A stretch of DNA of 32,671 nucleotides from Candidatus Zipacnadia bacterium (GTDB taxonomy: Bacteria; Armatimonadota; Zipacnadia; Zipacnadales; Zipacnadaceae): NCBI GenBank assembly GCA_029819875.1, contig JALGVG010000011.1, forward strand, positions 1-32,671. Direction: 5' to 3'. Below the pieces are notes generated by a model. The model was not told where the DNA came from, did not search any database, and saw only the letters and a list, made by a program, of their open reading frames with translations. Positions 2,685-5,910 of the stretch are shown here, piece by piece (position 1 is the first letter of the stretch; each line of letters starts with the position of its first letter). Made by a program: the position numbers and the translations under genes.

Positions 2685-3266
2685 CTAGTGGAGGGAGGTA
2701 GAGGTACGGGACGACACGGATGACTCCTGTTGCTGGGTCAAGTGGGGGGCGAAGGGTTCCAGGTAATCACGCCACGCCTGGTTGCGCAGTGCACGGGTGA
2801 AGGTCGAGAAGCTAAGGTAGGGAATGAAACGCGGGCGCTGAGGCGGGCGCAGCAGGGTCATTCCGGCCTCGCGGGGTGTGCGGTTGCCCTTCTTGCCGTT
2901 GCAACGCACGCAGCAGGCCACCAGGTTTTCCCAGGTATGCTTGCCGCCTCGTTCCCGCGGGATGACGTGATCCACTGTCAGGTGCTTGTCTCGCTTGCCG
3001 CAATACTGGCAGGTGTAGTTGTCACGCGCCATCACGCTGCTGCGCGACAGCTTTATCTGGGGCAGTGGCCGCTTGACGTACTCGGCCAGCCGCACCACAG
3101 TCGGCAGCCGGATAGTCGTGGTGGGCGAATGGATCTCGCGCGAATCGTAGGCCAGCGGCACGACTTTGCCCAGGTACAGCAGGGTTATCGCGCGCTGCCA
3201 ACTGCAGATGTTCAGCGGCTCATAGTTTTGGTTCAGAACGAGTACTTCACTATCCATTTTCACCAT
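2685..3266 (-). CDS. HNH endonuclease
   Basis: 193 aa; VLVLNQNYEPLNICSWQRAITLLYLGKV, CQYCGKRDKHLTVDHVIPRERGGKHTWENLVACCVRCNGKKGNRTP (two CxxC pairs plus DHVIPRERGG). The start may be the inner ATG at 3257. Confidence 0.92.
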   Translation of the reverse strand: MVKMDSEVLVLNQNYEPLNICSWQRAITLLYLGKVVPLAYDSREIHSPTTTIRLPTVVRLAEYVKRPLPQIKLSRSSVMARDNYTCQYCGKRDKHLTVDHVIPRERGGKHTWENLVACCVRCNGKKGNRTPREAGMTLLRPPQRPRFIPYLSFSTFTRALRNQAWRDYLEPFAPHLTQQQESSVSSRTSTSLH

Positions 3267-3278
3267 CTACTGACAGCC

Positions 3279-3305
3279 AAAAACTCGTGACTTGATTGTC
3301 ACGAG
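3279..3305 (-). terminator. Rho-independent terminator upstream of the HNH gene
   Basis: Minus strand CTCGTGAC-aatcaa-GTCACGAG-TTTTTGG: perfect 8-bp stem, 6-nt loop, T5 tract. Confidence 0.85.
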
Positions 3306-3426
3306 CTTTCTGGACATACTAATCCGTCCCGCCTGCAACGGCAGCCGGGTGGATGCCTAGTATCCGAAATTCGCTGGCATGGAAGTAGTAACCCATTATC
3401 CGCTCTTGCGATAGTAGTGTAAAATT

Positions 3427-3455
3427 ATCGTACCAAACCGGCACTGTGCTGTCAA
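3427..3455 (-). promoter_or_regulatory. Sigma70-type promoter in the dapL-HNH interval
   Basis: Minus strand TTGACA (3455-3450), 17-nt spacer, TACGAT (3432-3427). Confidence 0.6.
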
Positions 3456-3509
3456 GCTGTACAGGCGCCGCAGAGAAGCCGCTTACGGCGCCGCACTGCC
3501 GGCACATTT

Positions 3510-5670: not shown

Positions 5671-5910
5671 CTACGCCTGCTGCATATCGCTTTGCCCGGC
5701 GGTAGTCGCATCCGGGGCGATAGCAGCGATGGCTCCCTTGTAAATAAGTACGTCCATGCCGTTGGCATTGAGCATGAGGGTGAAGGTGTCAAAGGATGTG
5801 ACCTTGCCCCTCAGCTCCTTGCCGTTGCACAATAACACCCGCACGGGGCGCTGCGTCTTGCGGGCTTCATTGAGAAACGTGTCCTGTACATTGGGCTTGT
5901 CGCCGGCCAC
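5671..5910 (-). CDS. hfq: RNA chaperone Hfq
   Basis: 79 aa; VQDTFLNEARKTQRPVRVLLCNGKELRGKVTSFDTFTLMLNANGMDVLIYKGAIAAIAP; directly downstream of miaA. Confidence 0.93.
   Translation of the reverse strand: MAGDKPNVQDTFLNEARKTQRPVRVLLCNGKELRGKVTSFDTFTLMLNANGMDVLIYKGAIAAIAPDATTAGQSDMQQA

Follow-up and report, generated by a model that had tools for sequence, protein, structure and literature searches.

The region directly upstream of an HNH nuclease gene in the stretch of DNA analysed here (32,671 nucleotides, referred to as the window) is probably a cis-acting transcription attenuator, in which a translated leader peptide controls the nuclease gene. The loci resembling the window belong to Armatimonadota, with 'Candidatus Zipacnadia' as the nearest named ones. 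The order promoter, short open reading frame (ORF), terminator and HNH gene recurs across the phylum and is restricted to HNH genes. An earlier note on this DNA had proposed an attenuator, a riboswitch or a small RNA (sRNA). The conserved arrangement and selection at the codon level favour an attenuator with a translated leader, while the conservation of the coding frame and the lack of an Rfam match speak against a riboswitch.

The gene under predicted control is located on the minus strand (2685-3257) and has orthologues in the phylum. Its product matches the Pfam families HNH_5 (PF14279) and HNH above the gathering score (63.9 and 58 bits, respectively), and the residues DH, N and CxxC are present. 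Matches to IscB, Cas9d and PtuB are confined to the HNH domain, and the NCBIfam matches in this comparison are far below the cut-off. The gene was found in 252 of 291 Armatimonadota genomes (E below 1e-40) and in 181 of the 194 genomes of good quality. The ATG at 3266 or 3257 had been suggested as the start, and both codons are present. Position 3257 is likelier, since most HNH orthologues begin 2-4 residues before VLVLN, and 3266 is possible. The HNH genes of the window (3257-3266) and of locus L002, both of the same genus, each contain two ATGs (pattern M-x-K-M), which makes the start codon ambiguous.

A sigma70-type promoter is predicted on the minus strand at 3455-3427, exactly where the earlier note had placed it. 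It consists of the -35 hexamer TTGACA (3455-3450), a 17-nt spacer and the -10 hexamer TACGAT (3432-3427) preceded by TG, giving 10/12 matches and a predicted start near 3420. Eight promoter-like sites were found in 10 kb, compared to 2.3 expected from shuffling. In the same-genus genome G001, both hexamers are identical and TGGTACGAT is retained. A second promoter-like site (3423-3395) was set aside; its start would fall within the leader ORF. Between dapL and the leader promoter, the minus strand also contains a hairpin without a T-run (GGCGCCG...CGGCGCC, 3464-3492), which may mark the dapL operon's end, though weakly.

The transcript predicted from this promoter would run into an intrinsic terminator hairpin, CTCGTGAC-AATCAA-GTCACGAG (3284-3305, minus strand), followed by a T5 tract (3279-3283). 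The stem contains 8 bp (CTCGTGAC at 3305-3298 and GTCACGAG at 3291-3284) and encloses a 6-nt loop. Folding of the hairpin together with its flanks gives -20.2 kcal/mol (z -5.4), and none of 200 shuffled sequences was equally stable. The strong terminator ending at about 3279 described earlier is present. The window contains a single 8+6+8 pattern of this kind, against 0.16 expected when up to 3 mismatches are allowed. An automatic terminator scan missed it, apparently since A-U and G-U pairs prolong the stem into the T-run. The claim that no promoter fits between terminator and gene also held, as only ~21 nt separate the terminator from the ATG at 3257.

Three additional helices had been described in the leader. 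They exist, and the leader without the terminator is merely mildly more stable than shuffled sequences (z -1.5). One of them, CCCG-G-CTGC-CGTT-GCAG-G-CGGG (3328-3349, minus strand), lies between the ATA codon of the leader ORF and its stop codon; at the matching place in G001 (L002), a CCGGA/TCCGG helix can be seen by eye. A leader of ~140 nt with helices and a terminator, close to an Hfq-like gene (the ORF at 5671-5910, upstream, as had been noticed before), could also be read as a riboswitch for a metabolite or as a free sRNA that Hfq may bind. This is very improbable. In agreement with the earlier failure to recognise a riboswitch core, the Rfam 15 covariance models gave no match for the window, for the leader (E up to 5) or for 20 related loci. 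In addition, the conservation tracks codons, and in the 41 genomes searched the peptide adjoins HNH genes only (E < 0.01). The promoter found directly at HNH in lineages that lost the leader also speaks against a separate sRNA, which may be formed as a by-product of termination.

Conservation of the leader upstream of HNH orthologues had been proposed as a check, and the arrangement is found widely. In total, 141 HNH upstream regions were collected, 139 of which were long enough to score, and a terminator was counted when its dG was -12 or better and it was located 15-200 nt before the region of the HNH coding start. A terminator is present in 115/139 Armatimonadota regions, matching the position of the one in the window. 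A promoter-like site precedes this terminator in 95/139, and in a single region such a site lies between terminator and gene. Using the same detector on the Armatimonadota locus set, the order promoter, terminator and gene was observed for 14/30 HNH genes vs 3/65 other genes (Fisher p 3e-6). HNH homologues outside Armatimonadota have a terminator at that place in 3/29 loci. In genus g2 and in G006 (L006-L011, L013 and L005), the leader is gone and a promoter of the same type is located directly at the HNH gene. Because these natural leader deletions keep the promoter at HNH, they suggest that the leader promoter serves HNH. In genus g2, a few nucleotides separate the -10 hexamer from the start of HNH, which suggests that the HNH mRNA is nearly leaderless there.

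The leader ORF of the window is present as described before, with 25 codons at 3396-3319 on the minus strand, encoding MGYYFHASEFRILGIHPAAVAGGTD and ending at the stop codon TAG (3321-3319). Its counterpart in G001, MGYCLYNSGFVIVRAQPDADKLRMM, has the same length (25 codons), start and position of the F-x-I(ATA) motif. Multiple families of leader peptides were distinguished across the phylum. FRI(R) peptides are found in the Zipacnadia families f1, f3 and f5 and also in f11, RRGRHAAVGF in f6, and SLRMLEDG in f45, with LRLVED or LRLAED relatives in f44, f15 and f20. Other families carry RWSTGSWFGTRGRYR (f34), PPxWRDTII (f21), HHRFGHVMR (f13) or FVFRH (f42). Mixed peptides also occur, as f11 combines LED with PGFRI and f15 combines LAED with FRLRKPH. 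These mixed motifs suggest that the families descend from one putative ancestral leader peptide.

The leader ORFs are coding and under selection at the protein level, as indicated by the family alignments and, for the window itself, by the comparison with G001. Among 15 f34 sequences, the variability per codon position is 0.06/0.09/0.24, with the third position varying most. Nei-Gojobori dN/dS in frame is 0.28-0.73 (13 families), compared to 0.6-3.3 in shifted frames, where most values are 1 or more and the lowest (0.61) comes from two f3 pairs; the pairs were peptides aligned in the chosen frame with at least 50% identity, which somewhat favours that frame. A peptide profile search of 41 genomes returned HNH leaders only at E < 0.01, and no copies away from HNH were found below this value in these genomes.

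A conserved ORF with promoter and terminator, tightly linked to HNH, would also be expected of an independent small-protein gene whose product acts in trans, perhaps on the nuclease itself. We regard this as improbable. Only a short motif is conserved, with lengths and ends being free, and the f34 ORFs are unconserved past the motif and run into HNH. Moreover, such a gene would leave HNH with no promoter of its own after the terminator, and lineages that lost the leader have retained HNH with a promoter.

One constraint in the leader ORF of the window concerns a single codon. The F-R-I residues are encoded by TTT CGG ATA (3361-3369, minus strand; ATA at 3363-3361), and in the F-x-I peptides, the window included, the isoleucine is ATA in 21/21 loci, with R, V, L or Y at the x position. 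In f21, the Ile of PPxWRDTII (following PPxWxDT) is ATA in 12/12. The background share of ATA among Ile codons is 18% in the HNH genes of the nearest genomes and 23% in the genes of the window. Under independence, chance would produce these counts with probabilities of 6e-14 (21/21) and 3e-8 (12/12), values to be read with the relatedness of the genomes in mind, as these are not independent. In f45, f44, f15, f13 and f34, peptide residues are conserved and there is no invariant ATA, so AUA is not a phylum-wide feature. The Arg codon of FRI in the Zipacnadia and f11 leaders is nearly always CGG (two CGC), compared to ~30% usage elsewhere.

Two explanations of the invariant codon at the RNA level were considered. 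A CsrA-type GGA site in CGGATA was rejected, as the variants GTGATA, CTGATA, TACATA and CGCATA occur. An RNA hairpin around TTYCGGATA, seen in L018, L021 and L126, is not evident in all loci, and a codon-phase constraint explains more. TilS, the lysidine synthetase, was found, so that decoding of AUA presumably falls to tRNA-Ile(CAU) in the usual way. The leader could be a sensor that gauges the decoding of AUA by lysidine-modified tRNA-Ile(CAU) and is coupled via the terminator to the HNH nuclease. This idea is speculative and rather unlikely to be correct.

In the type with a stop codon before the hairpin, 54/54 measured ORFs stop inside the stem or no more than 12 nt short of it, compared to 12/36 ordinary genes ending that near a hairpin. 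The ORFs of f34, f35 and f21 run through the hairpin. The ATA codon lies 57 nt from the terminator stem in the window, 31-59 nt in 20 loci and 24-34 nt in f21. In Escherichia coli, the ribosome represses terminators located within ~27 nt of a stop codon; with the stop codon shifted to 5 nt, termination fell from ~90% to below 10% (PMC4824070). In the pyrBI leader, tight coupling is needed to prevent the terminator (PMC5021804).

In the attenuator proposed here, the single promoter (start near 3420) would give a transcript with the short peptide ORF followed by the intrinsic terminator, and HNH would be made only through readthrough. On reaching the ORF end, a ribosome would cover the 5' arm of the hairpin and keep it unfolded, resulting in readthrough. 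If the ribosome were instead held at the motif (in this lineage AUA, ~50 nt ahead of the stem), the hairpin could fold and transcription would end, with little or no readthrough. This direction, with the ORF end as the on position and the motif as the off position, has roughly an even chance of being right; it was chosen because stop-proximal terminators are repressed in E. coli, pyrBI needs tight coupling and ATA lies farther from the stem. We infer promoter use, terminator function and the dependence of readthrough on ribosome position, and this logic takes transcription-translation coupling in Armatimonadota as its premise.

The same geometry could serve an arrest peptide, in which a small molecule or antibiotic would cause the nascent chain to stall the ribosome near the ORF end, as for TnaC or macrolide leaders; the stalled ribosome would mask the terminator and switch HNH on. 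In many families, conserved residues lie ~7-13 codons before the stop codon, which would place them in the upper exit tunnel during decoding of the stop codon, and the stop codon adjoins the hairpin. However, an arrest peptide leaves the invariant synonymous codon ATA unexplained, the distance between motif and stop codon is variable (about 6-21 codons) and the f34 and f21 ORFs pass through the terminator. We consider an arrest peptide possible but somewhat doubtful.

With attenuation of the trp/his type, stalling would switch HNH on, because the ribosome waiting at the motif would free a segment that pairs with the 5' arm of the terminator. Segments complementary to this arm are located upstream of the motif in f5, f1 and f18 (z about -2), with strong ones in L002, L003 and L018. 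Those of f5 resemble AGCGGGCC (L019, L020, L021, L023 and L114) and lie at a nearly constant ~30 nt before the FRI codons (five loci, -27 to -32). Over 78 leaders, however, pairing with the terminator arm has a mean z of -0.16 on the upstream side of the motif and +0.3 on its downstream side, and the best upstream duplex in the window is no better than chance (z -0.4). No conserved or general antiterminator was found between motif and terminator in these 78 leaders, in line with the earlier note, which had seen no obvious one by eye. Trp logic is disfavoured because such a general antiterminator downstream of the motif is absent, and this type of control is unlikely.

The f34 loci (Fimbriimonadales; e.g. 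L141, L155-L164 and L173) contain a near-invariant TGGAGCACAGGCTCCTGG within the ORF, which can base-pair either with itself or with GGAGCCT, the terminator arm. Alternative hairpins could arise in these leaders from the series GGAGC/GGCTCC/GGAGCC, with possible 1:2, 2:3 and 3:4 pairing of the trp/his type. A three-state hairpin series is thus possible in f34, where the sequences vary too little for a covariation test. Because of this series and the arm-complementary segments in f5, f1 and f18, another switching logic, perhaps in the opposite direction, is possible.

Among known systems, the pyrBI leader (pyrL) of E. coli has an ORF that reaches or spans the intrinsic terminator, and a close ribosome blocks the hairpin (PMC4824070, PMC5021804). 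The f34 and f21 ORFs likewise extend past the terminator in the direction of the HNH start, and the 54/54 ORF ends within 12 nt are near enough to block the hairpin. The target of pyrBI attenuation is pyrimidine synthesis, whereas here it is a nuclease, and the HNH leaders add a conserved peptide motif and the invariant AUA. The trp/his/ilv attenuators share with the HNH leaders the order promoter, short leader ORF, terminator and gene, as well as control codon(s). They differ in that the F-x-I peptide lacks a regulatory codon run and has a single invariant ATA, that there is no general antiterminator and that the target is non-biosynthetic. TnaC and the antibiotic-resistance leaders (erm, msrD and the tylosin-induced leader) also combine attenuation with a short leader, in which conserved residues perhaps act in the exit tunnel. 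No sequence kinship with the HNH leaders is known; the codon-level constraint of the HNH leader is unlike nascent-chain sensing, and its target is an HNH nuclease.

The literature library that was searched returned nothing relevant on such a leader, on AUA-codon attenuation or on leader peptides of Armatimonadota. This probable phylum-wide leader-peptide attenuator on an uncharacterised nuclease is apparently undescribed so far. As far as can be told, the class of mechanism is already known, and the target and the invariant AUA are new. It is rare that a single synonymous codon stays fixed across distant lineages while the rest of the leader peptide changes fast. If AUA were indeed the sensor, the regulatory unit would be a synonymous codon and not an amino acid; in the extreme form of this idea, the nuclease itself would act on this tRNA or on translation, and the leader would close a feedback loop. 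The leader offers a way into the physiology of an uncharacterised HNH nuclease that is nearly universal in Armatimonadota, and whatever it senses would hint at the conditions that call for the nuclease.
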